Assembly: GCF_014697545.1 (NCBI RefSeq)
Contig: NZ_JACJSA010000008.1
Span: 62,001 to 126,000, forward strand
Origin: Oscillatoria sp. FACHB-1407
GTDB lineage: Bacteria > Cyanobacteriota > Cyanobacteriia > Elainellales > Elainellaceae
Direction: 5' to 3'
DNA length: 64,000 bases
The notes beneath the pieces were generated by a model. That model searched no databases and had not been told where the DNA came from. It worked only from the letters and a program-made list of their open reading frames with translations. Position 1 is the stretch's first letter, and each line of letters opens with the position of its first letter. A program made the translations under genes and the position numbers. Below, in pieces: positions 17,097-38,343 of the stretch.

Positions 17097-17462
17097 ATCA
17101 AGGGGTTTGCAACGGTTGTTTGATAGCTGTTATCAAAAGCCAGTTCTACATATTGAAAAAGATTTTTAGGCTGAAATCAAGCCGTTCGAGTTGAGAAAAA
17201 GCGGTTATCAAACTCTGAAAGGGTTTTGAGATCAGTTTCTTGCAGTAGAAAGGAATGGGTTTTACCTGCTCTTTACCGCTGCTCAGGCTCATAAACCCTA
17301 AAAAAATAATCTAGCTAATTAGGAATTACTTGCATTAATAGTACAATACTTCGTGTCTTTCATTTTGGGTTGGCTTTGAGTCAGCCGCTATTCAGGATTG
17401 CCTGGAATGCTGCATGGCTCAGATTTTCACCATCACGATTAATTTGTAGGAGAAATCATCGC
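17097..17462. other. Divergent promoter region of the proline-rich gene and futA
   Basis: 366 bases of AT-rich sequence with no HIP1 octamer and no supported gene. The AT-rich block around 17300-17345 (AAAAAATAATCTAGC, TTGCATTAATAG) is the likely futA promoter. I looked for a Fur box here and found no convincing match. AGGAGA about 10 bases before the futA ATG is its ribosome-binding site. Confidence 0.5.
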
Positions 17463-18533
17463 ATGAGTATTTCGAGACGTGCTTTTGTGAGAGCTGGGTT
17501 AGGCGCAGGCAGTGCCCTAACGGCGATCGCACTTGGGTCTCTCGGTCAGGCTAAGTCTGGCCTGGCTCAAGGAACTTCTGGAGGAGTGCTCAATCTCTAT
17601 TCGGCGCGGCATTACGACACTGATGACGCACTCTATAGCAGCTTTTCTGAACGCACAGGGGTGCAGATCAATCTAGTTGAGGCAGATGCCGATCAATTGA
17701 TTGAGCGGATTAAGAGCGAAGGAACCAATAGCCCAGCCGACATCTTTATGACGGTGGATGCGGGACGGTTGTGGCGTGCCCAACAGGAAGGCTTGTTGCA
17801 GCCTGTCTCCTCCCGGACACTGGAGCAGGCAATTCCAGCCAACTTGCGGGAGCCTCAGGGTCACTGGTTTGGTCTGTCTAAGCGAGCTCGGGTCATTGTT
17901 TACAACAAAGAACGGGTGAACCCAGCAGAGCTTTCAACCTATGAAAACTTGGCTGATCCAAAATGGCGAGGACGTATCTTGGTTCGCTCGTCAACCCATG
18001 TTTACAACCAGTCGTTGACTGGGGCGATTTTAGCGGCGGCTGGGGCTGAAGCCACTGAGGCTTGGGCACGGGGATTGGTCGCTAACTTTGCTCGTCCGCC
18101 CGAAGGTAACGACACAGCTCAGATTCAAGCTGTTGCTGCGGGTGTGGGTGATCTGGCAATCGTGAATACTTACTATATGGCTCGCTTAGCCAAGTCTCAA
18201 AATCCTGAAGAGCAGGCAGTTGCTGAGCGAGTTGCGCTCTTCTTCCCGAATCAGCGCGATCGCGGTACTCACGTCAACATCAGTGGGGCGGGTGTCCTTA
18301 GAAATGCTCGTAATAAAGAGGCAGCGGTTGCCTTTTTGGAGCATCTGGTCAGCACTCAAGCTCAAGAAATCTTTGCGATCGGCAATAACGAGTATCCGGT
18401 TGTCCCGGGAGCACCGATTGACTCCACCATTCGTGGGTTTGGGCAGTTTCGCGAAGATAGCGTGAATGCGGCTGTGTTTGGGCGCAACAACGCCGAAGCT
18501 CTACGCATCATGGATCGTGCAGGTTGGCGGTAG
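17463..18533 (+). CDS. futA: Ferric iron ABC transporter substrate-binding protein
   Basis: This 356-residue periplasmic protein delivers Fe(III) to the FutBC importer. A twin-arginine signal peptide starts [16 protein letters not shown], so it is exported folded by Tat. The mature part begins near [17 protein letters not shown], with the FutA/IdiA-type YSARHYDTD block, and contains [10 protein letters not shown], whose tyrosines are typical metal ligands of this class. I chose ATG 17463 rather than an upstream in-frame codon because the Tat motif starts there and AGGAGA precedes it. A 13-bp perfect hairpin overlaps the stop codon. futB and futC lie 1-4 kb downstream but are separated by a lipoprotein gene. 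Confidence 0.9.
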
Positions 18534-18560
18534 AGATGTTGGGCTAGAACATCTCTACCG
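18528..18560 (+). terminator. 13-bp perfect hairpin overlapping the futA stop codon
   Basis: CGGTAGAGATGTT and AACATCTCTACCG form a perfect stem with a 7-base loop. The futA stop TAG (18531-18533) is inside the left arm. It has no T run, so it may stabilise or end the mRNA. A weaker second hairpin (GAAGTGGG with CCCACTTC) follows at about 18569-18603. Confidence 0.65.
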
Positions 18561-18780
18561 TTGTCGCGAAGTGGGTTCATCATGGCAGGTGCGCCCACTT
18601 CACTCATAACATTACTCAATTTGGGGAGAGAAAGAGTAAGGGTAGAGGGGTGAATGAGTGGATTGGTAGAAGGGTGAACCCAGGTTTGGCTCATCTGCCC
18701 TCCGACTCAAATCCTCTCCTCGTCTTTGCCCTACTTCTTGCTCTCTCCTTTTGCCTTCTCTTATGCTCTTAAATGTCTTT

Positions 18781-19272
18781 ATGAAACACGCTATTTCCCC
18801 GGTGTTGTGCCTACTGCTGCTAGGGGGGGCGATCGCCAGTTGCGCGAAGCCCGACCCGCAAACTCAACTCTTGCAAACGAAAGATTGCATCGAGTGCGAT
18901 CTGCAAGGCATGGATTTTAGTCAAGCTGACTTAAGTCAAGCCAAACTGAACCAGGCAAATCTCAGCAACGCCAACCTCAGTGGTACGGATTTGAGTCAAG
19001 CTTTGTTAGACAGCACGAATCTGAGTAACGCCAACCTGAGCGGCGCGAACCTCAGCACGGCGGGGCTTGCTTCTGCCACTCTCAAAGATGCCGATCTGAC
19101 AGGTGCCAATTTGGAAGGGGCATTTTTGAGAACGGCTGACTTGAGCAACGCCAATCTCAGCGGCGCGAATCTCACGAATAGCGACTTGACCGGAGCCATC
19201 TTGACCAACACCAACTTAGAGGGTGCCACTTTGAAGGGGGCGATTATGCCCGATGGCAGCATTCATGAGTAG
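18781..19272 (+). CDS. Pentapeptide-repeat lipoprotein
   Basis: A 163-residue secreted lipoprotein. The signal peptide MKHAISPVLCLLLLGGAIASC ends in a lipobox cysteine. The mature part is almost entirely A(D/N)LXX pentapeptide repeats, such as ANLSGTDLSQALLDSTNLSN and ADLTGANLEGAFL, which fold into a right-handed quadrilateral beta-helix of about four or more coils. Pentapeptide lipoproteins of this kind are frequent in cyanobacteria and their roles are mostly unknown. It lies between futA and the convergent futB, so a role in the iron system is possible. An ATG at 18763 is an alternative start. Confidence 0.88.
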   Translation: MKHAISPVLCLLLLGGAIASCAKPDPQTQLLQTKDCIECDLQGMDFSQADLSQAKLNQANLSNANLSGTDLSQALLDSTNLSNANLSGANLSTAGLASATLKDADLTGANLEGAFLRTADLSNANLSGANLTNSDLTGAILTNTNLEGATLKGAIMPDGSIHE

Positions 19273-19290
19273 AAAGGAGACCTAACAAGA

Positions 19291-19312
19291 GAGATGCGAT
19301 TAATCGCGTCTC
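19291..19312. repeat. Palindrome copy 1 (core GCGATTAATCGC)
   Basis: GAGATGCGATTAATCGCGTCTC has near-perfect dyad symmetry. It sits between the convergent pentapeptide lipoprotein gene and futB. It belongs to a twelve-member family in this window. Confidence 0.85.
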
Positions 19313-19345
19313 TCCTCGTGGGGGATCTGCTCAAAACTCAAAACT

Positions 19346-20995
19346 CTAACTGCGTGCCATTTGCCGACTTAAAAGAATGACAGGAATCACTCCCACAGCG
19401 ACGATCGCCAGAGCGGGAGCAGCAGCTTCGGCGAGGCGTTCATCCGCAGCAAGGTGATAAACCCGTACGGCTAGTGTGTCGAAGTTAAAGGGTCGAACGA
19501 TGAGAGTAGCGGGTAACTCTTTCATCACATCGACAAAAACGAGGATAGCCGCCGTGAGCAATCCCCCTCGAATCAAGGGCGCATGGATTTTGAGCAGGGT
19601 GCTGCTGGGAGTGTGACCCAGGGAACGAGCCGCATCATCCAGACTGGGTTTGACTCGACCCAGGCTAGACTCGACTGACCCCAGGGCGATCGCCAGAAAT
19701 CGCACGAGATAGGCAAACACCAGCGCAATAATCGTGCCGCTTAGTAACAACCCTGTGGAGATACCAATCGTATTTCGCAGGGTGGCATCGATGGCGTTGT
19801 CCAATCTGCCCATGGGGACGAGCACACCAACCGCAATGACGGAACCGGGCACAGCGTAGCCAATGGAAGCAATTCGCACGGCTAAAACCGTTCCAACCGT
19901 TGGCTGTAGGCGGATGCCGTATGCCAGGATGAGGGCGATCGCGACTCCCACAATGGCGGTCAACGCTGCCAGGGTAAAACTATTGCGGGCAAAGCTCCAG
20001 AAGCGATCGTCCGTCAGTTGCCCCAGGTTGTTCAGCGTCATGTGAAGCAACACACCTGCCGGGACGAAAAAGCCCAGTGTCAGGGGCAAGAGGCAAACCA
20101 GTTGAGCGATCGCCGCCCGCCAACTCCGGAGTTGATGTTTGGGAGGGGTTTGAGAACGGGTGTGATGGTAACGCGCCTGTCGCCGAAACCAACGTTCTAC
20201 AAGAATCAGGCCAGTAATGAATAAGAGCAACACCGCTGCTAGTTGAGAGGCAGCCAACCGTTCGCCCATGCCAAACCAGGTGCGATAGATCCCGGTGGTG
20301 AAGGTATCGACACCAAAGAATTCGACCGTACCAAAGTCGCTCAGTGTTTCCATCAGAGCCAGGGCAACCCCAGCTGCGATCGCCGGACGCGCCAGGGGCA
20401 GTGCCACGCGATAAAAGCTTTGCCACGGAGTGCAGCCCAGACTGCGGCTTGCCTCAAGTGTGCAGGTTGATTGCTCTAAAAATGCCGTTCGAGCTAACAG
20501 GTAGACGTAGGGATAAAGCACCAGCGTCAACATCAACACCGCCCCACCCAGCGAGCGAATGTCGGGGAACCAGTAGTCGCTGACCCGTTCCCAGCCAAAC
20601 AGCGATCGCAGGAACCCCTGGACAGGTCCATAAAACTCCAGCAACTCAGTGTAAACGTACGCCAACAAATAAGCAGGAGCCGCTAATGGTAGAAGCAATC
20701 CCCACTCTAGCCAACGGCTTCCTTTGAACTGGCAGCAGGTAACGAGCCAAGCGGTGCTGACCCCAATCAGGCTCACTCCCAGACCAACCCCCAGCATCAG
20801 CCCCACCGAATTCAACACATAACGCCCCAGAACGGTTGCGACCAAATGTGCCCAGACCTCACGGGTCGGCGCGAACAGGCTACTCAACACGAATAGAATC
20901 GGGGTTGCCGGGAGGAGGGCGATCGCGCCTACCAGCAATACCCATCCATTGAGTCCAGGGAATGAAGGTCGGCGATTGAGATTTTGGAGAGACAT
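19346..20995 (-). CDS. futB: Ferric iron ABC transporter permease
   Basis: FutB is the inner-membrane channel of the ferric-iron ABC importer. The 549-residue protein has about twelve helices arranged as two fused permease halves. Each half carries the cytoplasmic EAA loop that couples to the ATPase: EASRSLGCTPWQSFYRVALP in the first and DAARSLGHTPSSTLLKIHAP in the second. This is the long fused form usual in iron/thiamine/spermidine-type (CysTW/FbpB) permeases. The gene converges with the lipoprotein and is divergent from futC, so futA, futB and futC lie in three transcription units. Confidence 0.93.
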   Translation of the reverse strand: MSLQNLNRRPSFPGLNGWVLLVGAIALLPATPILFVLSSLFAPTREVWAHLVATVLGRYVLNSVGLMLGVGLGVSLIGVSTAWLVTCCQFKGSRWLEWGLLLPLAAPAYLLAYVYTELLEFYGPVQGFLRSLFGWERVSDYWFPDIRSLGGAVLMLTLVLYPYVYLLARTAFLEQSTCTLEASRSLGCTPWQSFYRVALPLARPAIAAGVALALMETLSDFGTVEFFGVDTFTTGIYRTWFGMGERLAASQLAAVLLLFITGLILVERWFRRQARYHHTRSQTPPKHQLRSWRAAIAQLVCLLPLTLGFFVPAGVLLHMTLNNLGQLTDDRFWSFARNSFTLAALTAIVGVAIALILAYGIRLQPTVGTVLAVRIASIGYAVPGSVIAVGVLVPMGRLDNAIDATLRNTIGISTGLLLSGTIIALVFAYLVRFLAIALGSVESSLGRVKPSLDDAARSLGHTPSSTLLKIHAPLIRGGLLTAAILVFVDVMKELPATLIVRPFNFDTLAVRVYHLAADERLAEAAAPALAIVAVGVIPVILLSRQMARS

Positions 20996-21298
20996 GGAGG
21001 GTTAATGGTCAGTAGTCAATGGTTAATGGTCAGTGGTCAATGGTTAATAGTGAATGGTCAATGGTTGGTGATTGATGGTCAGTAGTCAATGGTCAATGGT
21101 CAATGGTTGGTGATTGGGTAATCGTTGAGAAGGCTGAGTGTGGTTTAGTTGCGCCTACTGAAAATTGAGTGCTGATTAATCGCTGTATCCTTCTGCCCTT
21201 TGTCTTGTACTAAACTCAGGTGGCATTAGTGATGAACAATTGACGATTGACCAACGACGATTGACCCTTGACCGACGACGATTGACCCTTGACTAGTA
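20996..21298. repeat. Heptad arrays in the futB-futC intergenic region
   Basis: Two arrays of 7-bp units lie between the divergent futB and futC genes. The first (about 21001-21116) is built from GGTCAAT, GGTTAAT and AGTCAGT variants. The second (about 21237-21298) is built from ATTGACC-type units with ACGACG spacers. They belong to the STRR-type repeats that also occur at 24.1, 40.05, 49.0 and 60.9-61.2 kb. Short AT-rich promoter-like DNA lies between and after them. Confidence 0.85.
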
Positions 21299-21317
21299 AC
21301 AAATGAGAATTAATATC
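21299..21317 (+). promoter_or_regulatory. Possible Fur box upstream of futC
   Basis: The 19-mer ACAAATGAGAATTAATATC matches 13 of 19 positions of the classical Fur consensus and lies about 70 bases before the futC start. It would fit iron-repressed control of the importer. The match is moderate and was judged by eye. Confidence 0.35.
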
Positions 21318-21386
21318 AAAAACCACTTTACTATGAAGCCGGAATTGTTGATGATTTGAAAGCACTCTGACACTGAAAGCCCGTCC

Positions 21387-22442
21387 ATGAGCCTGTCTGC
21401 TATCTTGCAACTCGATGGTATTTATCGACAATTTCCGCGATCGCCCCAACCTGCCGTTCAAGGGGTATCGCTAAGTTTGCAGCAGGGCGATTTGTTGGGT
21501 TTGTTGGGTCCGTCGGGCTGTGGCAAAACGACGCTGTTGCGGTTAATCGCTGGATTTGAGCAACCTCAGTCAGGGGCGATCGCCCTGGGGGGACGGACGG
21601 TTGCTGGCGATGGCGTGTGGGTTCCTCCAGAGCAGCGCGATGTGGGGATGGTGTTTCAGGACTATGCGCTGTTTCCCCATTTGACGGTCGCTGAGAATAT
21701 TGCCTTTGGCTTGCAACAACGGGGAGCAACTGCCAAAGAGTTAGTGAAGGAGCGAGTCAAGGAGGCGATCGCACTAATTGGCTTGAGTGGCACGGAACAG
21801 CGATATCCCCATGAGCTATCGGGCGGGCAACAACAGCGAATTGCGCTGGCTCGTGCGCTGGCTCCCCGTCCCAAAATCATTTTGCTAGATGAACCCCTGA
21901 GCAATCTGGATGTGCAGGTGCGGTGGCGATTGCGTCAGGAGGTGCGGGATATCCTCAAAGCGACCAATACCTCTGGGGTATTTGTCACCCATGACCAGGA
22001 AGAAGCTCTGTCGATCGCCGATCAGGTGGCGGTGATGCGGCAGGGACAGTTGGAGCAAATTGGCACACCAGAAGAGATTTATCGCCATCCCACATCGCGG
22101 TTTGTGGCGGAGTTTGTCACCCAAGCCAACTTTATTCCTGCTCAACGGTCTGAACGAGGGTGGGAAACTGAGATTGGTATGTTCCCGGCTTCAGCCGATG
22201 ATGTCAGCCTGTCAGCAGGCGATCTAATGCTCTGTCAGGAAGACCTTCAATTAGAGCTAGATGCGACTGGGGAAGTGGTGGTGCGCGATCGCCAGTTTTT
22301 GGGGCGGGAGTATTGCTACTGGTTGCAGACGCGATCGGGCAAGGTCCTGTATGCCCGGACTCCTGCAACCTTTGTGCTGGCGGTTGGAACAGCAGTAAGG
22401 ATATCTGCAACTCGGCTTAAAGTTTTTCCGGCAGATCGATAG
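21387..22442 (+). CDS. futC: Ferric iron ABC transporter ATP-binding protein
   Basis: This 351-residue ATPase powers the FutAB importer. Walker A GPSGCGKTT is at 41-49, the Q-loop is in MVFQDYALFPHL, the signature LSGGQQQR is at 144-151, Walker B ILLDEP is at 165-170 and the switch His is in VFVTHDQEEAL. The C-terminal quarter forms the TOBE-like regulatory domain. The family (FbpC/CysA-like) often transports ferric ions, and the neighbourhood of futA and futB fixes the substrate assignment. A possible Fur box lies upstream. Confidence 0.93.
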   Translation: MSLSAILQLDGIYRQFPRSPQPAVQGVSLSLQQGDLLGLLGPSGCGKTTLLRLIAGFEQPQSGAIALGGRTVAGDGVWVPPEQRDVGMVFQDYALFPHLTVAENIAFGLQQRGATAKELVKERVKEAIALIGLSGTEQRYPHELSGGQQQRIALARALAPRPKIILLDEPLSNLDVQVRWRLRQEVRDILKATNTSGVFVTHDQEEALSIADQVAVMRQGQLEQIGTPEEIYRHPTSRFVAEFVTQANFIPAQRSERGWETEIGMFPASADDVSLSAGDLMLCQEDLQLELDATGEVVVRDRQFLGREYCYWLQTRSGKVLYARTPATFVLAVGTAVRISATRLKVFPADR

Positions 22443-24036: not shown

Positions 24037-24082
24037 AAGGTCTTCTCCTGGGTGATGGGCACTGCTGTCAGTTTAGATCACT

Positions 24083-24126
24083 GGGGAGTAGGGAGTGGGG
24101 AGTGGGGAGTGGGGAGTAGGGGAGTA
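24083..24126. repeat. GGGGAGT heptad array
   Basis: Six heptads of the GGGGAGT/AGGGAGT type, upstream of the GH57 gene and within the region divergent to the NTPase gene. Members of this family also occur at 49.1 kb (opposite orientation), 54.1 kb and at the 3' end of parA. Confidence 0.9.
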
Positions 24127-24140
24127 AGGGAGGAGAGGAG

Positions 24141-24160
24141 AGACGCGATTAATCGCGTCT
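24141..24160. repeat. Palindrome copy 3 (AGACGCGATTAATCGCGTCT)
   Basis: A perfect 20-bp palindrome in the region between the divergent GH57 and NTPase genes. Its position in a divergent region shows that this family is not confined to sites of transcription termination. Confidence 0.9.
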
Positions 24161-24178
24161 TTACGGATCTCTATTCCC

Positions 24179-24242
24179 CTGTCACCCCTTCACCCTGTCA
24201 CCCTGTCACCCGTCACCCGTCACCTCGTCACCCCATCACCTC
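24179..24242. repeat. GTCACCC heptad array
   Basis: About nine units of GTCACCC and close variants (CTGTCACC, TTCACC, CATCACC) lie in the 356-base gap before the NTPase gene. With the GGGGAGT array and palindrome they leave about 150 bases (24243-24392) of unique promoter-like DNA. Confidence 0.8.
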
Positions 24243-24392: not shown

Positions 24393-27300
24393 ATGACGGC
24401 AAGAGTGCCGACTACGCTTATCAACAGTTTGCAGTTAGCAAAGCAGGGTGATGCAGAGGCGATCGCCGCTTTGGTCAATCGGGCATTGCAACCTCGGAAC
24501 ATTCATGTGGTAGCCGTGTCGGTTGAGGATGAACGGCTGCATCTGGTGTTGGAGTCGGCGCAGGCACCGGATCAGGAAACCGTAGTGCCGTTTATCCGGC
24601 AGAGCATCAACCAATTGGGAACCGAGGCGATTCGGGCCGTGGTGCTCTACGGAAAAGCACAGGATCAGTCAACCCAGGCGTGGCAACAGGAAATTGTGTT
24701 GGAAAGCCCTGCCACGGTGGAAGGCGATCGCATTGTCCCCCACTATGGCGGTGAAATAGAGCGATCGCAAGCATTCGGAGCAGAGTCAACCAGCAAGACA
24801 ACCGTCGCAGAACTGCCTGCAACCTGGCTGGAACCCGATCTGGAAAATAGCGCACGAGTAGCCGTCGGTAACAAATTGCTGCACCAAACCTCCCATGGCG
24901 GGGTAGTCAACCTAGCTCCAGGGTTTCGGCGACTGGTGGTGCGATCGCGCCAGGTTTTGACGCCAGCCCAGGGTAGCGAATCGTTCCCCGATTTGCTCGA
25001 TCGCCAGCTTGAGCGGGAGGAGGCGATCGCCGCATTGCTGGCGGGTTCCTCTGTGGCATTTTTTGGCGAAACGGGGTCGGGCAAAACGGCTCTATTGCGA
25101 TCGCTAGCACACCACACCGAGCTAACAGGTGCCTTTCGCGATGGGATCGTGTATCAGCGTGGACGGTTCCACTCCGCCAGCGACCTGTTGCAGTCGTTAT
25201 TCGATGCCTTCTTTGAGTGCGATACTACGCTCCCCACCCGCCCCACCGCCGATGAATTGCGTCAGGCGTTTCAGAGCCATCGTGCTCTGGCGGTCTTAGA
25301 TGATGTGGATTTGCCTGAATCTGAGGTGGCTCAACTGCACACTCTACCCGGATTAGTGATTCTCTCGGCGAGTCAGGAGCGGCAGTTGTGGAATCGGGTC
25401 AACGCCATGCCGATGTTAGGGTTGCCGTTAAACGATGCCCTGACACTGGTAGAACGAGGACTGGGGCGATCGCGGACCGCCGACGAACGCCCAGATGCGG
25501 AGGTGCTGTGCAATCTGGTGCAGGGGCACCCGCTGCGGATTCTGCAACTGACAGCACTGGTGCGCGAGGAGGGGCAAACCCTGGCAGTGTTAGTCCAGCG
25601 ATTGCGTCTGGCTCCCTCAGTGGATGCTCTGCCACTCAAGGCGGCGGTGTCTTTGCCAGAGGCAGAGCGGCGCGTGCTGGCGGTGTTGGTGGTGCTGGAT
25701 GGCATCTCCGTCCGCATGGAGCATCTGGCAGCCCTGACCGGATTGCCTAACATTCAAACCATTCTCGCCACGCTGACACGACGTTATCTGGTACTCAACG
25801 ACAAGGCTCGCTATTACCTGTCACAGCCCGTCGTCGCTGCCCTGCGACCCGCCTGGAATTTGAGCCAGTGGACACAGCGGGTGATCACCTATTTCTATCG
25901 TTGGTTAGAGCGGCAAGCTCAGCCCGATGCTCTGGTGCCCGAACTGGAGGTGTTGTTGCAGGTATTGCGGTTGGCGATGACCACCCAACAACCCAACGTA
26001 GTGCTGCGACTGGCACAGGCTCTCGACCCGGTGTTGCTCTCGACAGGTCGATGGAGTGCCTGGGAGCAGGCGTGGCAATGGGCGTTGCAGGCAGGGCGAT
26101 CGCTCCAAGATCCAGCAGCCATGGCAACAGCACTCCACCAGTTGGGAACTCGTGCTCTGTTGCTGGACGATCCCCTGACGGCACATACCTACTTAACAGA
26201 AGCGTTGCAACTGCGCGACTCTCTGGGCGATCGCCCTGGAGGTGCGGCTACCCGTCACAATCTGGAGTTGGTGCTGACCCTGCCCACGGAGGTTGATCCC
26301 GTTGCAGTCGCGGCTTCCCCTCCCCGACTTCTGCAACGACGTCGGTTCCCGACTCAAGTCGCGATTGTAGTCGGTAGTTTGGGAATGGCGATCGCCGGAA
26401 TGCTCTTGCTGCTCAACCCGTTCCCACGACCTGCCAGTTTTTCCCTCAGTGCCACCCGTCTCGGCTTTGGGGAACAGACCCTCAACACGACCAGCACAAG
26501 TCAGACCATACGCCTGACGAATACCGGGTCACGACCGTTAGACATCACCAGCATTACGCCATCCGGCAACAGCAAAGACGATTTCCAGGTCACGGAGGAT
26601 TGTACCGCTGCGCCGATCGCCCCCAACGATGACTGCACCGTTGAAATCACCTTTACGCCCCAAGCCGAAGGCGATCGCCTCGCCACTGTGCTTATCCTCG
26701 ACCGTGCCGGGGATAATCCTCAAGAACTGCTGTTAAGCGGCATTGGCACACCACCAACGAGTCCCTTTGTGCTCAGCTTTGCCCCCGGTAACGTCACCTT
26801 TGAACCGCAGGTTCTCAACACCGCCAGCAAATCGCAATCCATCATGGTGACCAACACGGGATCAGAGCCAGTGGCGATCGCCAGAGTCACCGTTACCGGA
26901 GAGCAAGCCACCGACTTTGTCAGCACAACCAACTGTGTGAATCTGACCCTGGAACCCCGGCAAACCTGTCGCATTCAGGTGTCTTTTATGCCCAAAGCTC
27001 TCGCCAATCGGCGTGCCAGCGTCTTGATCACCGCCAAAGGAGAATCAGAGCTATTGGCAACCGGAGAATTGCCCGACCAACCACCGCCTTTCTGGAACAT
27101 CCCATTGGGAGGCACCGGAGTTGCACCAACCGCTCAAACCACCCCCAACGCCGCATCGGCTCCTCCATCTGCCCCTCTGGCGGCAGTGCCCAGAGTGAGT
27201 CTGAGCCTGAGCGAAATGTACTTTGGGGCGCAAGGCATTGAGACACGCGCTGAGAAACCCTTGGTGATTGCTAATACGGGTACAGCATCCCTCTACATTG

Positions 27301-28157
27301 ACGACCTGACGATCGCCGGAGAAAACCCCAGAGACTTTGCGATTACCGAGAACACTTGCCTGGGTGGTCCCATCCTCGCCGATGACGGTTGTATTGTTAC
27401 CGTGCGCTTTAGCCCCAGTGCAGCAGGCGATCGCCAGGCTGACCTGGTGATCCGGGATAGTGCCTCCGGTAGCCCAAGGCGGATCGCACTCAGTGGTGTA
27501 GGGTTGGAGCGATCGCCCTCTACAGCAGCGACCCCCACTCCATCCGGTGACTCCTCGCCCACAATTCTCAACTTTGCGGCAACTGATTCCCAGATTAGGG
27601 CAGGTGAATCGGTGCGACTCTGTTATGGCGTTGCCAATGCAAGCCAGGTCGTGATTGAAGGCGTTGGCGACGTTGCTCCCGCCACCGAGGAGTGCGTGAC
27701 GGTGGAACCCGGTCAAACGACCACCTATAACCTGACGGCGATCGGCGCAGACGGACAGGAAGTGACCGCTCAAACAACCGTCCAGGTGACGCCAGCCGAT
27801 GACCCTCCCGCACAACCTGAACCCGGCGCCCCTCTGACCACCCCTCAGTTAATCTCTCCGGGTAGCTCCAATCGCGGAGCCGCACCCGATTTGTTGTCCT
27901 GCAAGAACAGTACGCCACTCACCTGGGAGTCAAGCGGTTCTGGGAGAGACGTATTGACCCTGCAACAGTTCTCAAATCAATATCAGGACTGGATGACGGT
28001 GTTTGAGGAATCCCTACCTTCTGGCACCGATATCACTTCCTGGTTGACACAATATCAGAGCTATGAGTGGCGATGGATGGTGCGATCGGTCGATGGAGCG
28101 GGGCGATCGAGCGAACCGTCTCCCTGGTATTACTTCACTTGTTATGACTTTCAGTAG
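24393..28157 (+). CDS. Large NTPase with one transmembrane helix and three ASH/choice-of-anchor-D repeats
   Basis: A 1254-residue protein of unrecognised function. Residues 1-100 are a small domain seen at the start of cyanobacterial signalling proteins. A STAND/NB-ARC-like NTPase follows, with P-loop GETGSGKT (225-232) and Walker B-like LAVLDDVD (299-306), then helical linkers and a tetratricopeptide-like stretch. One membrane helix (about 653-677, VAIVVGSLGMAIAGMLLLL) separates this from three ASH-type beta-sandwich repeats (about 680-785, 795-900, 935-1040) that share LGFG, TNTGSRPL and CTVEITFTP blocks. An Ig-like module (1060-1135) and a final module with C-terminal YYFTCYDF follow. Cytoplasmic NTPase with an exported tail is the natural topology. 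Codon use and HIP1 content match the chromosome. Confidence 0.8.
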   Translation: MTARVPTTLINSLQLAKQGDAEAIAALVNRALQPRNIHVVAVSVEDERLHLVLESAQAPDQETVVPFIRQSINQLGTEAIRAVVLYGKAQDQSTQAWQQEIVLESPATVEGDRIVPHYGGEIERSQAFGAESTSKTTVAELPATWLEPDLENSARVAVGNKLLHQTSHGGVVNLAPGFRRLVVRSRQVLTPAQGSESFPDLLDRQLEREEAIAALLAGSSVAFFGETGSGKTALLRSLAHHTELTGAFRDGIVYQRGRFHSASDLLQSLFDAFFECDTTLPTRPTADELRQAFQSHRALAVLDDVDLPESEVAQLHTLPGLVILSASQERQLWNRVNAMPMLGLPLNDALTLVERGLGRSRTADERPDAEVLCNLVQGHPLRILQLTALVREEGQTLAVLVQRLRLAPSVDALPLKAAVSLPEAERRVLAVLVVLDGISVRMEHLAALTGLPNIQTILATLTRRYLVLNDKARYYLSQPVVAALRPAWNLSQWTQRVITYFYRWLERQAQPDALVPELEVLLQVLRLAMTTQQPNVVLRLAQALDPVLLSTGRWSAWEQAWQWALQAGRSLQDPAAMATALHQLGTRALLLDDPLTAHTYLTEALQLRDSLGDRPGGAATRHNLELVLTLPTEVDPVAVAASPPRLLQRRRFPTQVAIVVGSLGMAIAGMLLLLNPFPRPASFSLSATRLGFGEQTLNTTSTSQTIRLTNTGSRPLDITSITPSGNSKDDFQVTEDCTAAPIAPNDDCTVEITFTPQAEGDRLATVLILDRAGDNPQELLLSGIGTPPTSPFVLSFAPGNVTFEPQVLNTASKSQSIMVTNTGSEPVAIARVTVTGEQATDFVSTTNCVNLTLEPRQTCRIQVSFMPKALANRRASVLITAKGESELLATGELPDQPPPFWNIPLGGTGVAPTAQTTPNAASAPPSAPLAAVPRVSLSLSEMYFGAQGIETRAEKPLVIANTGTASLYIDDLTIAGENPRDFAITENTCLGGPILADDGCIVTVRFSPSAAGDRQADLVIRDSASGSPRRIALSGVGLERSPSTAATPTPSGDSSPTILNFAATDSQIRAGESVRLCYGVANASQVVIEGVGDVAPATEECVTVEPGQTTTYNLTAIGADGQEVTAQTTVQVTPADDPPAQPEPGAPLTTPQLISPGSSNRGAAPDLLSCKNSTPLTWESSGSGRDVLTLQQFSNQYQDWMTVFEESLPSGTDITSWLTQYQSYEWRWMVRSVDGAGRSSEPSPWYYFTCYDFQ

Positions 28158-33714: not shown

Positions 33715-34285
33715 ACTATTTGCCTCACTGTTGGGTGTAGAGAAGAACAGCTTAAGGCGTGGTTTCCCAACCACTCGTTTTGCGTCAGCAAGGCAATTGA
33801 CCTAAAATCAACACAGCCTAGCCTCCTGCTCCATTCAGGAGTTAGGTTAGCTGGTTAGCGAGTGCTCGCTACACTCCTAATCAGCGTTATCCTCACCTTA
33901 AGCTTTGTCCACTGGAAATCCAGTGTTTCATAGAATAATCGAAAGGGCGGTTACCCCGCAAGGGGGAACTGCTTCGCACCGTAGACAAGCGTATGAAGGG
34001 AATTAGGGGCGACCCTTGCGGTATCTGCAAAGCAGCACGATGGGAATTGAATCATTGCTTTGGATCTGCTTGCCCTCATCAGGAATCTAAAAATATGCGG
34101 AAAGATTCTCGCTATTAAGCTTAATCCGCCTATTATTCAGAATTAATCTTCACGAGTAGTAAATTTGGGTGTTATGTCGAATTAGTCTACCTGTCCACCC
34201 TAAATTAGGATCTTAGACGTAAACTTTCATTCTATTAATAGTTAGCCTGCCTCAATATGCTGAGTCCCTCTGCCTGTATTATCGA
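33715..34285. other. Gap with dispersed repeats at the left edge of the cassette
   Basis: This gap of 571 bases holds no supported gene. It includes a second copy of the 19-mer at 33960-33978. At about 34008-34025 GCGACCCTTGCGGTATCT belongs to the family that, inverted, interrupts the frame at 37.86 kb. A hairpin (CACTGGAAATCCAGTG) lies near 33910. HIP1 is absent. The stretch marks the transition from host-like DNA to the AT-rich cassette. Confidence 0.6.
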
Positions 34286-35182
34286 TTGCAATGGATATGG
34301 GACTTCCATGAAAATCTTCAGAGACTTGGAGCTAGAATCTTGACTGAACAGCCTGCTTCTAATGAAGCTCTTAGAAAAAAGCTTGTCATTGCAGCTTTAC
34401 TAATTGCTTGTGGAAGTTTTGTACTAAGTTGGTTGGGATGGATAGAATTCCGTTTGAAGCAAGTAGCAGAGCAAGAACAGCGACGCGCGCTAGCAGCACA
34501 GCAAGAGCAACAATCAATGGTACAATCGCTAGCTGCGATAGAAGCGCAAATTAGGGCTTTTCAAGAGTTAGAGCAAAAGGAATTAGAGCGAGAGGAAAAT
34601 GAAGGACCAGCAATATTTGCACCAGGACCCAGGATAGATTCGCTAGCTGCGATAGAAGCGCAAATTAGGTCTTTGCGTGAGTCACAGCAACAGGGAAATA
34701 TAGTCCAAAGATCTGCTGAAGATAATGCAGGAAGTGCTACATCCGATTTAAATGGGGAAGAGCTTACGAGTATTTCGAGAGCGTCTTCTTCCTCACCAGA
34801 AACGGTGGTTACATCTCCTACCCTGCAATTAGCAGAACTGGCTTCAGCATTGGACAAGTACTACCTTTGGGGACTGGAACATCGTAAAGCTACGTTTCAA
34901 CTTCAACTCATTAAAGACAACATTTTATTTGTTGTTGTACTGACCATTTTAGGATTTGGGCTTTATCTGTCTTATATTCAGTTCAAGAAAGGCGATCAAG
35001 CGGAGGGTAGCCTCAAATTAGGTCCTGCAGGTGTCGAAATCACTTCATCTATCTTGGGTATCTTCATACTCGCCTTCTCTATTGGCTTCTTTTATCTGTA
35101 CTTAGTGCATGTGTTTCAGATAGAAGAAATCGGTCAACCAAATATCGCACCAGCAGTTGGTTCCGGCAATCAAGATAGGTAG
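34286..35182 (+). CDS. Membrane protein with coiled coil and duplicated segment
   Basis: A 298-residue protein of unknown function. One helix near the N-terminus (VIAALLIACGSFVLSWLGW) is followed by a long Gln/Glu-rich coiled coil, and two C-terminal helices (LFVVVLTILGFGLYLSYI and ILGIFILAFSIGFFYLYLV) end it. An exact 30-bp repeat, 114 bp apart and in frame (34526-34555 and 34640-34669), gives two copies of SLAAIEAQIR. The frame opens with TTG at 34286 and has no ATG until well into the coiled coil, so the start is unsettled or the 5' end is lost. It is AT-rich and HIP1-free. Confidence 0.6.
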   Translation: MQWIWDFHENLQRLGARILTEQPASNEALRKKLVIAALLIACGSFVLSWLGWIEFRLKQVAEQEQRRALAAQQEQQSMVQSLAAIEAQIRAFQELEQKELEREENEGPAIFAPGPRIDSLAAIEAQIRSLRESQQQGNIVQRSAEDNAGSATSDLNGEELTSISRASSSSPETVVTSPTLQLAELASALDKYYLWGLEHRKATFQLQLIKDNILFVVVLTILGFGLYLSYIQFKKGDQAEGSLKLGPAGVEITSSILGIFILAFSIGFFYLYLVHVFQIEEIGQPNIAPAVGSGNQDR

Positions 35183-35604
35183 CATGACCCAATATTTCTG
35201 TATCTTGCAATATGCCTAACAATTTCTTGCAGGTGGACGCGAAGTCGAAAAGATCAGGTTGACCTAAAGGAGTAAAAGTAGAAACAGCAAGAATTCTGTA
35301 CGGGCGTGGGCTGACACTGCGTTGGTGCGGACGGTACAAAGGTTATCGGTTAGAGTTCAAGGCTATCTGCCGCCGCACAATTTCACCGTTAGCCCTCAGA
35401 TATTAAGTAGCCATAGTCCTTCTAATTATTCTGTAAAGATTGAACCGTTTTGAATTAATAGCTGCGACAGTGATGAAGTTAAGTCAGATGATGTCATCAA
35501 ATCACTACACTGGATTAGATCTTCAAGTTGAATCTGCCCAAAGACTGATTGAGATACGGAATAGGGGATGTTAGAAATGTTTTAATCGTTTGCGGAGAAT
35601 TAAA
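35183..35604. other. Gap with no recognised gene
   Basis: About 420 bases of AT-rich DNA between two genes of the cassette. No palindrome-family member, heptad array or convincing frame is present. It ends in a promoter-like stretch before the GGAGA site at about 35595. Confidence 0.45.
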
Positions 35605-35877
35605 ATGGGACTCTTCAATAGAAACGATAGGAAGTCTGAAGAAACTAGAAAAGTCAGGATCGTTAATGAACGGAGTCGCGTCACAGAAAAGCACAATGGA
35701 GATGTGATTACGGATACATATCGTCAAGAGATTGAGTTTGAAGGATCTAGCGAAGATTGCAAAAATGTTGCCGCGCATGCCTACTTAGCAGGCAAGCAGG
35801 AGGAGCAACGTTTGTTATCTGATCAACCAGAAAGATCAGAGAAGCGTATTCGCGCGTTGCGAGCGGTGAATGAATAA
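35605..35877 (+). CDS. Small charged protein of the cassette
   Basis: A 90-residue hydrophilic protein, starting MGLFNRNDRKSEETRKV, with no signal or membrane segment. It is rich in R, E, K and D (EKHNGDVITDTYRQEIEFE). I recognise no family. GGAGA lies about 10 bases before the ATG, which was chosen over an earlier in-frame codon. Its stop overlaps the start of the next frame (ATGAATAA), so the two are translationally coupled. Confidence 0.65.
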   Translation: MGLFNRNDRKSEETRKVRIVNERSRVTEKHNGDVITDTYRQEIEFEGSSEDCKNVAAHAYLAGKQEEQRLLSDQPERSEKRIRALRAVNE

Positions 35878-36160
35878 AGGAGACAAAATTAAGGGTCTAC
35901 GTAGAAGTGTGATTTCAGTCCTTCTTGTCTTGTGCGTTTTTCTGACAACTTTTGCTGCCCCTGCTTGTGCTTCCCTAGAAGAAGACTTTGTCGATGGTTT
36001 TGCTAAAGGAGCAGGTTAAACTGCTGACGTAGCTTTTGTTTCTTGAACAACATGTCTTGTTACAGCGGCATTTGCCCCAATCGCCGCTCCTGCTGTTTGC
36101 ACCGCTTCTGGCGAGGTAATTTTTGGATGGTTTGGTTGGAAATTAGTTGGCAAGAGATGA
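35870..36160 (+). pseudogene. Broken secreted-protein gene with two in-frame stops
   Basis: The frame opens MNKGDKIKGLRRSVISVLLV, with a clean signal peptide (LLVLCVFLTTFAAPACAS) and cleavage near ACA-S. After 49 residues it meets TAA (36017). Read on in the same frame it gives TADVAFVS, then TGA (36044), then a hydrophobic segment TTCLVTAAFAPIAAPAVCTA and GEVIFGWFGWKLVGKR before a final TGA (36158). The continuous frame of 97 codons with two stops looks like a gene with two nonsense changes, or a truncated 49-residue product. A long minus-strand frame over the same DNA is judged spurious. Confidence 0.55.
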
Positions 36161-36367
36161 CTCTTTGGGAGAGCTGCTTCTGAGAGCTTATAGAGCAATA
36201 CAACACCATAGTAGGCTTGGCACAAGAGGGCTAACAATCCTGTTGGGGCGGCGAACAGAGCTTTCTCACTACATTTTGATGATGTTTGTTGCCGCTCAAT
36301 AGGGTCGTTAGACAGCTTGTGTGATCGGTTAGGGCGATGCTTCATTTTTTTGCAAAGGAACGAAAAT

Positions 36368-36886
36368 ATGAATCCAGAAGAAATATTGCGAAAAAAGTTT
36401 GAGGAAGAGTTAGACAAAGCAAAAGATAAAGGTGGTAAGGCAGATGGTGTCATTTGGGTTGCTGTTTTAGCTAACGCTGGGATGGGTGCAGTACCTCTCG
36501 GCATCAATATATGGACATTTGCTGGTGTCAACACTTTGATGGTTGTTTTTCTTGGAGGTATTTACGAGTACCACTTATCTCAGGAAGATGCCGGTAAACT
36601 AATTAAACAGATTTTTGGTGCTGTCGGATGGACATGGATGGCATCTGTTCTTGGGCTAAAGTTTTTTGCTGAAGTCTTAAAAGGAGTAGGTGTGATCACT
36701 TTGGGAGGTACGACCGTTGCTGGAATGGCACTAGACGCACTTCTCTCTGGAGCAGTCACATATGCTTTGGGATATACCACAAAGGACTACTTTGCTAAAG
36801 GCAAGAAAATGTCAAAATCCGAATTAGAGAAATCTTTCAAATCTAGGTTTGAAGAAGGCAAGCAAAAAGTTAAAAATCGAGGTTAA
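36368..36886 (+). CDS. Membrane protein, DUF697-like
   Basis: A 172-residue protein opening MNPEEILRKKFEEELDKAKDK, a charged helix, then hydrophobic segments (VIWVAVLANAGMGAVPLGIN, VNTLMVVFLGGIY, WTWMASVLGLKFFAEVL, VGVITLGGTTVAGMALDAL) and a charged tail (SKSELEKSFKSRFEEGKQKVK). The pattern GVNTLMVVFLGGIYEYHLSQEDAGKL recalls DUF697 proteins, which accompany small GTPases, but none is here. AAAGGAA lies about 10 bases before the ATG. Function is unknown. Confidence 0.65.
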   Translation: MNPEEILRKKFEEELDKAKDKGGKADGVIWVAVLANAGMGAVPLGINIWTFAGVNTLMVVFLGGIYEYHLSQEDAGKLIKQIFGAVGWTWMASVLGLKFFAEVLKGVGVITLGGTTVAGMALDALLSGAVTYALGYTTKDYFAKGKKMSKSELEKSFKSRFEEGKQKVKNRG

Positions 36887-36943
36887 GTCGTTGATAGTTC
36901 TCTTGCTGCTGTCCTAAATAAATTAACAAGGAGAAGACCTAGT

Positions 36944-37276
36944 ATGTTGAGAAGCTTTATGTCCCTTGTAGGAGCAATCATGGGAGAACATGATCATGAT
37001 GTCCATGATGACTTTGATGTCCATGATGATACATTCCACGACATTCCTGAGCACGATGTTGATACTGATTATGATATTAGTTCCCTACATCCACAAGTTA
37101 GCCCAAGCTTTGGAAGCTCCTCCGATACAGGGACTTATGATCCAGTTAGTGGAACAGCGACTTTCCCAGATGGTACTGTTGTGACCAACCCTTACCAAGA
37201 TGCTCATGGGCAAGTTTATAAGACTAGAGAGGATTGGGTAAATGCACAAGATCCACATACGGTTGAAGAAACATAG
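36944..37276 (+). CDS. Small His/Asp-rich protein of the cassette
   Basis: A 110-residue protein. After a short hydrophobic start (MLRSFMSLVGAIM) comes a cluster of His and Asp (HDHDVHDDFDVHDDTFHDIP) that could bind metal ions, which is inference. The C-terminal half has a strand-rich pattern with FPDGTVVTNPYQDAHG. AAGGAG precedes the ATG. It ends the cassette. No family is recognised. Confidence 0.6.
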   Translation: MLRSFMSLVGAIMGEHDHDVHDDFDVHDDTFHDIPEHDVDTDYDISSLHPQVSPSFGSSSDTGTYDPVSGTATFPDGTVVTNPYQDAHGQVYKTREDWVNAQDPHTVEET

Positions 37277-37709
37277 CTAAGTCTATCAGCGTGACTCAGC
37301 CTCTTAAAATTAGCTTTCCATTGTGCTAGAGATGATCTAAAGTGATGGGAAATTATTTAGTTTGCCCTTAACATTTAGAAAATCTAAAATGTGCTGTCTA
37401 ATTAAACTCAGTGCGATCGTCAATCTTGTAGGGTGCGTTGCTGCTAAGCAAACGCACCATTCTAGTGAGCATCCTTTACATTAATGCCTAATTAAGCGAT
37501 TACGTGCCCAACTGCCGAAGACTTGCGATCGGGGATGGTGCAAAGATGGTCTGTAGCAGTGCGATCGCCTGTAGCTTGAGTTTCCTTAATCAACCCAACA
37601 ACTCATTATCCACTTACTGCACACGCTTCAGCGATCGCCTTCACACCCTTTGAGTAATGCCAACCATTAAGCTGTAAGGTTATTAGCATTTCTGCGCGTC
37701 CTGATATTT
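37277..37709. other. Gap with a dispersed hairpin
   Basis: 433 bases without a supported gene. GGTGCGTT and AACGCACC at about 37433-37459 form a hairpin of a dispersed family seen again near 38240-38276. HIP1 returns at about 37560, the first since about 32470. This marks the right edge of the cassette. Confidence 0.55.
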
Positions 37710-37940
37710 ATGCAAGCCAAACTTCAAGAGCAACTCTCTCCAGCCGATGCAGAGGTGATTTTGGGGCGATTGCCTGAGCGAATTCGTACTGCTCTCATTG
37801 ATCGTGCTGCTGAGATTGAATATCCCATCGAAGCAGTGCTTGAGATGGCGTGCTCTTCGAGATACCCGCAAGGGGTCGCAAGTTTCCTTGATTCAGAGGT
37901 GTTAGGTTTTGTAGATTGCAAGCCAAGGCGAGGTCAGTAG
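37710..37940 (+). CDS. Small protein interrupted by a dispersed repeat
   Basis: A 76-residue frame: MQAKLQEQLSPADAEVILGR, then LPERIRTALIDRAAEIEYPI, then EAVLEMAC, then SSRYPQGVAS, then a FLDSEVLGFVDCK tail. The underlying DNA (about 37853-37880) is the inverted copy of the dispersed sequence GATACCCGCAAGGGGTCGC found near 34015, so the eight or nine residues around SSRYPQG look like an in-frame repeat insertion. The rest is helical and hydrophilic, of unknown function. HIP1 DNA flanks it. Confidence 0.5.
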   Translation: MQAKLQEQLSPADAEVILGRLPERIRTALIDRAAEIEYPIEAVLEMACSSRYPQGVASFLDSEVLGFVDCKPRRGQ

Positions 37941-38343
37941 AGCTTTGTAATTGATGAATCGCAAAGTCTAACAAGTCATGGAGACGGAATACTGTAAAAT
38001 CTCGGTCTGAGTTCGAGGTTAATTGCTGCCACTGATTTGAACCGTCAGCAGAGTCAGTAGCGATCGCCCTGTTGAGTTTGTTGGGTGATGAGAATTTTGA
38101 TGGTGATCAGGTTTATCTGTAAGGTTTGCGCGATCGCTTGACTACATAAGAGAGTATCAAGAAGCCGTTTAAATATCTAAATCTGGAGGAATTAGGCTTC
38201 TGTAGGGATGTGGCATACTATATGCCTCAGCTTTCGCTCCAATGGTGCGTTACGCTAACGCTAACAGCACCCTACCGTCTGGGTGGTGAGCTTGTCGAAC
38301 GGCTCCCCATTCCCCACTCCCATCTACCTCCCCACAACTCGCT
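37941..38343. other. Gap with dispersed hairpin and degraded heptads
   Basis: 403 bases with no supported gene. GGTGCGTTACGCTAACG near 38240 belongs to the family at 37433. The last 60 bases before the molybdoenzyme (CCCCATTCCCCACTCCC) are CT-rich heptad-type sequence that replaces a Shine-Dalgarno region. Confidence 0.55.

Follow-up and report, generated by a model that had tools for sequence, protein, structure and literature searches.

A candidate membrane-tethered STAND (NLR-like) receptor with three ASH domains in a cyanobacterial genome

In this work, we examine a single gene in a stretch of 64,000 nucleotides from the cyanobacterium Oscillatoria sp. FACHB-1407 (contig NZ_JACJSA010000008.1, positions 62,001 to 126,000), which is called the window below. 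The gene is an intact open reading frame (ORF) whose product joins an N-terminal module, here called the N-domain, to a short glycine-rich motif, a STAND/NB-ARC NTPase, TPR helical repeats, one membrane helix and three ASH domains. The analysis gives the architecture, predicted folds and family of this protein and, in several relatives, the locus-specific sharing of the motif with a partner gene. This sharing matches the published bacterial NLR amyloid-type pairs. For the window protein, we propose a STAND (NLR-like) receptor that is tethered to the membrane by one helix, has an exported sensor or anchor arm and an ADP/ATP switch, and recruits effectors by like-with-like contact, and we assign this proposal a probability of about 0.53.

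In the proposed mechanism, the arm of ASH, Ig-like and FnIII-like modules would sense, or anchor to, something in the cell envelope. The TPR, winged-helix and NTPase part would act as the ADP/ATP switch and, once released, could oligomerize like Apaf-1. The N-terminal region, consisting of the motif and the N-domain, would then be presented and would recruit an effector through a like-with-like contact. We infer the topology, the ligand and the oligomerization of the window protein; the contact made by the motif would be amyloid or RHIM-like, and by analogy the window protein would work as its relatives would.

The best-known bacterial NLR-like proteins detect invaders inside the cell. If the proposal is true, the same switch with an exported arm would connect protease or cell-death-type outputs with the envelope or cell surface in bacteria, of which many are filamentous. 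It would make outside triggering of NLR-like signalling testable, and matched motif pairs would offer a handle for comparing specificity between loci.

Fold of the Cytoplasmic Half

In the window protein, Pfam matches NB-ARC at residues 220-305 (E 4e-6, above the cut-off) and, weakly, TPR_12 at residues 577-627. The AlphaFold model of residues 1-688, calculated with 54 aligned sequences, has a mean pLDDT of 87 and a pTM of 0.81. Its best Foldseek match is Apaf-1 (E 8e-12), and Avs3 (8dgc) is also among the matches (E 3e-8). Superposition with VIA-align gives Z 23.8 and a root-mean-square deviation (rmsd) of 3.7 over 399 residues for Apaf-1, and Z 23.4 and rmsd 3.3 over 347 residues for the STAND-TPR protein 6mfv, while the helices at about 493-632 match the TPR chains of Pins/LGN. 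These superpositions hardly cover the N-domain and the motif, and a missing fold there is no evidence for a new one. A sequence search of the PDB with the window protein gave no match below E 0.35.

In the alignment of relatives, the P-loop residues G228, G230 and K231 are conserved at 90% or more over 29 rows, with L097-L099 left out (L-numbers are locus labels of relatives, and G-numbers are genome labels), and relative L046 has R at position 231. The Walker B residues L302 and D303 are invariant in 12 rows. The protein thus has a P-loop and a Walker B region in an NB-ARC-type fold that is followed by a winged helix, as in STAND/NB-ARC NTPases.

The ASH Arm and Its Location

Each of three stretches after the membrane helix is matched by Pfam models Cep192_D4 (6.5e-21), HYDIN_VesB_CFA65-like_Ig (2e-19) and ASH (2e-17), and also by the NCBIfam model choice_anch_D (6.9e-42). 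The whole-protein scores exceed the cut-offs of PF15780, PF22544 and PF22073. The model of residues 650-1254 has a pLDDT of 72 and a pTM of 0.37; the ASH stretches reach about 80-95, the Ig-like part is of low and the tail of moderate confidence, and the order between domains is uncertain. Its 24 best PDB matches by Foldseek are chains of the ciliary central apparatus, and the SPD-2 domain of CEP192 follows at rank 27 (3e-10), near Ig-type receptors such as PTPdelta (2e-10); 7sqc, 9ijj and 7ptb are among the matches to the ASH fold. Sequence profiles and an Ig-like beta fold thus agree on ASH.

An earlier note, made from the letters of this DNA, had read the order N-domain, P-loop NTPase, helical linkers, one helix, three ASH-type repeats, Ig-like module and cysteine-ended tail, and profiles and models bear it out, including the ASH identity of the three beta modules. 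The linkers are indeed helical and are, in detail, a winged-helix-like region plus TPR repeats. The Ig-like module and the tail are present, with limits drawn by eye, and the last cysteine (1250) has an apparent partner at 1170. The note called ASH domains best known from eukaryotic cilia and centrosomes; they are not specially eukaryotic, as the NCBI model names bacterial and archaeal proteins. The note mentioned neither that the N-domain is a multi-copy cyanobacterial module nor the conserved motif at residues 149-187.

The window protein has a single strong hydrophobic helix at residues 656-674 (mean hydropathy 2.52). For the relatives, 51 non-duplicate rows were considered. Leaving aside L050 and L081, whose sequences stop just past the NTPase, 41 of the remaining 49 have a membrane-like helix (mean hydropathy at least 1.5) behind the NTPase-TPR region. 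The eight rows without a helix call are two fragments (L042, L049_30), five borderline Nostocales-type proteins (L134, L137, L138, L139, L142) and one distant match (L147).

The cysteines bear on the location of the arm. A C-x(7-14)-C pair occurs in 74 of 75 ASH repeats, a count made without a shuffled control, and the ASH-bearing rows have 140 cysteines in 9,018 residues after the helix compared to 72 in 11,235 before it. In the window protein, the ten cysteines after the helix form five apparent pairs. Cysteines that are paired and denser after the helix fit an oxidizing compartment, which suggests that the ASH/Ig/FnIII-like arm is located outside the cytoplasm. The idea of the earlier note that an exported region is coupled to a cytoplasmic nucleotide switch is therefore supported by the fold matches, the recurrent helix and the cysteine pairs.

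Motif Sharing in Relatives

We now consider the motif that precedes the NTPase. In relatives from other phyla (L127, L128, L130) it reads about SGQ(V/I)A(V/I)GxxxxQ(I/V)GSxHGGVV, and in several members without an N-terminal domain it forms the start of the protein. At four loci, the locus's own version of the motif recurs in the C-terminal part of a partner: a CHAT + TRADD-like_N protein (L086), a CHAT + cyclase protein (L089), a caspase (L136) and a kinase encoded two genes on (L127). For the CHAT protein at L047 the likeness is weak.

Another partner is a small protein consisting of an N-terminal motif copy and a conserved helical domain. At L130, L084 and L145 it is encoded next downstream of the STAND gene, the distance from the STAND stop being 15 bases (to the first ATG) at L130, 70 bases at L084 and, at L145, 55 bases to the first ATG, with further start codons ahead of it. 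At L051 it follows the ASH half; the matching STAND half is probably L050, which lies on a different contig of that genome. In genome G176 the small protein is encoded about 430 kb away from the STAND gene. On a Streptomyces plasmid (L219), a STAND gene in which no ASH was detected is followed after 12 bases by a weakly similar small protein (E 3e-4). The L127 kinase ends in the same helical domain. The small partner has no Pfam or NCBIfam match, and plasmid searches with the L130 copy gave no match.

For eleven partner/receptor pairs, the receptor's own linker ranks 4, 1, 1, 1, 1, 1, 1, 1, 5, 1 and 2 among 52 linkers (49 rows and three plasmid rows), with the first places of L130 and L219 being ties. 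We have also made an unpicked scan of 529 non-overlapping neighbour ORFs at 49 loci. At a score of 55 or more, the own linker is best in four cases (L130 tied), compared to a mean of 0.24 and a maximum of 2 in 200 permutations; at a score of 50, the numbers are five against 0.83, with a maximum of 4. The sharing is thus locus-specific in several relatives, where it has the form of a BASS-type pair.

A different explanation is that the motif is a mere structural strand element of the NTPase, that its likeness to partners comes from recent copying or composition, and that the signal passes through the N-domain or other contacts. The AlphaFold model places strands in the motif with high confidence (155-158, 161-166 and 169-174), and the motif is retained in relatives where no partner is seen. 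However, partners carry the motif of their own locus even where the small protein is otherwise conserved between loci: when three small proteins are compared, the motif parts score 45-55 and the C-terminal parts 223-309, while each motif scores 75-99 against its own STAND protein. We consider this explanation unlikely, although it is the strongest competitor.

Several results weigh against a like-with-like receptor. The predicted strands would make the motif ordered already in the monomer, and a strict RHIM-like core is found in only 7 of 51 linkers (1.3 in shuffles). The eleven pairs were partly picked because the motif had been seen, and some are weaker against shuffled sequences (13, 4 and 1 of 1000 for L047, L127 and L089, respectively). 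The unpicked scan is weak at a score of 45 (six against a mean of 2.1 and a maximum of 7), and two of these six seem to be chance hits, among them the solute-binding protein of the window. Other linked genes do not share the motif: Trypco1 at L144 ranks 25, L127_37 ranks 30, L144_6 ranks 45, L127_5 ranks 20 and L136_48 ranks 12 of 51. At L038 the same small protein is encoded downstream without the motif. ASH-bearing receptors account for five of the eleven pairs (L084, L050/L051, L088, L145, L127), and the receptor is without detected ASH in the other six, namely the CHAT and caspase pairs (L086, L089, L047, L136), L130 and L219. Because the CHAT and caspase pairs involve such receptors, our confidence is slightly lowered. 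The K/R charges around the helix favour an exported arm only weakly (85 against 67), and the positive-inside rule is not decisive.

Findings in the window's own genome point the same way. The window protein has a degenerate motif, a search with the small protein found no homologue of it in that genome, and a peptide search found no second motif copy, with the best other profile match at E 0.33 and containing stops. An NLR amyloid (BASS-type) pair was thus not found for the window protein. The flanking genes are housekeeping genes in other orientations, and the STAND-ASH gene stands alone.

Family and Its Variable Ends

A query with the NTPase-TPR part has a match at E<=0.001 in 72 of 291 sampled genomes of the class, the genome of the window included, and a strong one (E<1e-20) in 29. 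A scan of named genomes, considered for the best 80 of 211 places, adds Leptolyngbyaceae, Scytonema, Fischerella and others. Within the same 80 places, relatives outside the cyanobacteria occur in Anaerolineales, Thermoflexia, Anaerolineae and Armatimonadetes genomes, all four metagenome-assembled, and in the isolate Geodermatophilus africanus. Judged by sequence, the family spans Cyanobacteria, Chloroflexota, Armatimonadota and Actinomycetota. The plasmid searches yielded three actinobacterial relatives, and a Streptomyces plasmid protein annotated as 'choice-of-anchor D' is a further STAND-ASH protein. The domain combination, which the earlier note did not recognize, is accordingly not unique to the window and recurs in other genomes as a family.

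ASH and NTPase occur in one ORF in 17 of the 51 rows. The Anaerolineales protein has two ASH domains, the Armatimonadetes one three (at a contig end) and that of Geodermatophilus four, with eight PASTA stretches in its exported part. Big_9/cadherin-like repeats are found in the exported parts of L084 and L090, and proline-rich tails in the Nostocales types. Tails similar to the FnIII-like tail of the window protein are present in L051 and, by eye, in the Thermoflexia relative L130. The N-terminal module also varies, being the N-domain in the clade of the window, Trypsin_2 in L144, zinc ribbons in L136, or the short motif alone, and there are compact relatives without N-domain and without ASH. 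In a quick tree, which includes 47 of the 51 rows, the window protein falls inside a 13-row set (SH-aLRT 98); on this tree, the type of exported part (three classes) changes at least five times and the N-domain at least four times.

A wider reading can be put forward tentatively. In a cross-phylum transmembrane NLR-like family, an exported ASH, PASTA, cadherin-like or FnIII-like arm might read the envelope or surface, and the Apaf-1-like switch might seed a RHIM/amyloid-type contact with a small, possibly membrane-active helical protein or with a CHAT, caspase or kinase effector. Such a family would be a one-molecule, outside-to-inside counterpart of the bacterial NLR signalosome.

Alternatively, the same membrane STAND switch could be an envelope-stress or developmental regulator with a physiological output such as wall remodelling, filament development or adhesion. 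PASTA and cadherin-like/Big_9 repeats among the ectodomains agree with this, and no defence genes were found among those scanned at the window locus. The compact relatives have a gene nearby that is presumably an nrdR-like zinc-ribbon repressor, at nine loci and directly beside the STAND gene in eight, which makes a housekeeping role possible and counts against the receptor proposal. A sigma factor operon had been considered for this gene and was dropped, since the sequences are presumably nrdR-like; the arrangement is read as synteny. Speaking against a regulator, CHAT, caspase and trypsin-type proteins as well as TRADD-like_N occur in linkage with relatives, and PMC8195603 and PMC7159879 place the caspase, trypsin and TRADD-N parts in conflict systems. 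We regard such a regulator as rather improbable.

The receptor proposal can finally be compared with a surface adhesin or cell-wall anchor carrying a degraded STAND domain as passenger. Surface proteins commonly carry ASH, Ig and FnIII-like repeats and the window gene stands alone, but the P-loop, Walker B and GxP positions and the NTPase-TPR core are conserved over the family, making this option very improbable.

The coordinates of the gene and its parts are collected in Table 1.

Table 1. Parts of the STAND-ASH gene, with positions in the window and the basis of each assignment.
Feature	Position	Strand	Basis and remarks
Whole ORF, membrane-anchored STAND NTPase with ASH ectodomain	24393..28157	+	intact, 1,254 residues; start agrees with homologues' start (alignment)
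N-domain, residues 6-106, alpha-alpha-beta-beta-alpha-beta-beta module	24408..24710	+	own-genome search, hidden Markov model matches, alignment, model secondary structure
Glycine-rich conserved motif preceding NTPase, residues 149-187	24837..24953	+	degenerate in window protein; RHIM-like in some relatives
STAND/NB-ARC NTPase core, about residues 189-400	24957..25592	+	Pfam, Foldseek, VIA-align
P-loop GETGSGKT, residues 225-232	25065..25088	+	position and conservation in alignment
Walker B region LAVLDD, residues 299-304	25287..25304	+	position and conservation in alignment
Winged-helix-like region, about residues 401-490	25593..25862	+	AlphaFold model and alignment to Apaf-1
TPR helical repeats, residues 491-632	25863..26288	+	Pfam, AlphaFold model, Pins/LGN TPR matches at about 493-632
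Membrane helix, residues 656-674	26358..26414	+	hydropathy, AlphaFold model
ASH domain 1, residues 682-786, Cys737/748	26436..26750	+	profiles, model, Foldseek
ASH domain 2, residues 793-892, Cys848/859	26769..27068	+	profiles, model, Foldseek
ASH domain 3, residues 934-1038, Cys989/1000	27192..27506	+	profiles, model, Foldseek
Ig-like domain, about residues 1056-1135, Cys1077/1101	27558..27797	+	limits by eye; model strands, low confidence; similar modules in L046 and L051 tails
FnIII-like tail, about residues 1148-1254, Cys1170/1250	27834..28154	+	limits and name by eye; model strands, moderate confidence

Relation to Known Systems

STAND proteins with variable ends, bacterial ASH domains and paired NLR motifs are already known; the addition here is the membrane helix and exported arm on a motif-NB-ARC-TPR receptor. 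Apaf-1/NB-ARC STAND proteins and the bacterial or archaeal STAND-TPR protein 6mfv are soluble. They have the NTPase, winged helix and helical repeat fold in common with the window protein, which differs in the membrane helix and exported arm after the repeats and in its N-terminal module. Choice-of-anchor D/ASH proteins (NF012200, PF15780) usually belong to the cell surface or the cytoskeleton and lack a STAND NTPase; three ASH-type domains are shared with them, and the nearest solved folds include ciliary ones and CEP192.

The original paper on BASS motifs is reportedly that of Dyrka et al. 2020. In the bacterial NLR amyloid-type pairs described in PMC7889193 and PMC8086366, an NLR-type NTPase carries a short motif on its N-terminal side, and this motif recurs in a neighbouring effector, which is sometimes a CHAT protein. 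Such sharing of a motif by NLR and effector led to the discovery of bacterial amyloid signalosomes. The fungal NLR PNT1, in the same sources, has the order motif, NB-ARC, TPR, as in the family of the window protein. Unlike in BASS-type pairs, the receptor here has a membrane helix and a predicted exported arm, the motif of the small partner is N-terminal, and amyloid is putative.

Two further comparisons can be made. PMC7159879 describes a GTPase-centred GAP1-N2 module with a C-terminal transmembrane (TM) segment and sometimes cadherin domains, together with the adaptor logic of effector-associated domains. The regulatory NTPase, the C-terminal TM segment and the recruitment of effectors by adaptors are in common, whereas that system is GTPase-centred and not of the NB-ARC-TPR type; the terms 'ASPM' and 'Ig-like' are absent from the main text of that paper. 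Avs and bacterial NACHT STAND proteins have the same tripartite layout of N-module, NTPase and C-terminal sensor (PMC10907252), but the sensor here is predicted outside the cytoplasm and PADLOC gave no confident match. For one STAND protein in that source, a periplasmic location of the NACHT and lectin domains is predicted. A search of titles and abstract beginnings, with subscription papers mostly outside its reach, found no description of a STAND-TPR-TM-ASH family.

The N-Domain as a Cyanobacterial Module

The N-domain, for which there is no family model, is a large cyanobacterial module in its own right and recurs in about ten other proteins of the window's genome. We collected 77 distinct closed non-NTPase ORFs with this domain from 64 loci, orthologues being counted apart. 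A predicted membrane helix follows the N-domain in 47 of the 77 and exactly one helix in 27, while the background for exactly one helix is 51 of 304 ORFs of at least 250 residues from the same loci. Pfam partners were determined for 39 of the proteins, hand-chosen for variety, and are EcsC (4), PrsW protease (2) and one each of PGA_cap, Pilin_GH, GUN4, TrkA and others, with none in the first member. The N-domain may be a cytoplasmic adaptor of membrane proteins, and it may have replaced the motif in the partner contact of the window protein.

No Pfam or NCBIfam model matches the N-domain at cut-off; weak Pfam matches to RimK_N and LpxI_N lie below it and were set aside. There is no Pfam match to TRADD-like_N or to a named effector-associated domain, and the fold search hardly covers this region. 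Among the N-domain loci L111-L120, L115 is a protein of the window's genome with at least three N-domain copies.

Genomic Neighbourhood and Further Observations

In the window, a GH57-like gene lies divergently upstream of the STAND-ASH gene and a PMT-type gene convergently downstream, with a phosphonate-like ABC transporter, psb29 and a radical SAM gene nearby. An operon or defence-island context was rejected on account of these housekeeping neighbours, and clustering of neighbours found none consistent with the other loci. The best PADLOC match, around the P-loop, has E 0.0044, and among ten chosen flanking ORFs there is one weak PADLOC match (the radical SAM protein), so that a defence-island location was not found. 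The suggestion of the earlier note of a role in signalling or defence is thus favoured by what was seen in relatives (linked CHAT, CHAT + TRADD-N, caspase and kinase genes, the trypsin fusion and the shared motif), but the window gene is alone among housekeeping genes and such a role there would follow from the relatives.

Upstream of the gene, short tandem repeats of GGGGAGTA and CCCTGTCA types are present at 24082-24240. The transporter, at 17370-22442, is 2-aminoethylphosphonate-like; its three genes are distributed over both strands, and a pentapeptide gene lies between them. At 34000-38000 the GC content is 0.42-0.43 compared to about 0.52, and the region holds small membrane-like and unassigned ORFs.

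Some observations concern the relatives. At L048 (3324-7789) and L049 (3223-7159), from two genomes, the STAND-ASH gene is broken up into two or three frames, while the close relative L044 has it whole; both decay and assembly error are possible. At L088 (4682-5290, genome G176), the STAND-ASH open frame is preceded, at a distance of about 300 bases, by a CRISPR-type array with 10 repeats spaced by 61-64 bases. A Caspase-GUN4 protein is encoded about 1.9 kb from the STAND-ASH gene at L039 (12791-15661), and at L144 (6827-10352) the Trypsin_2-STAND fusion has a predicted membrane helix and follows a Trypco1 gene. The helical domain of the small partner ends larger proteins, ATPase-like by eye, at L204-L214, in eleven genomes that also match the STAND query. 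Finally, L215 and L217 are pentapeptide-repeat-like proteins whose N-termini are hydrophobic and of low complexity; they carry a similar glycine-rich motif and end in a helical part of distant similarity.

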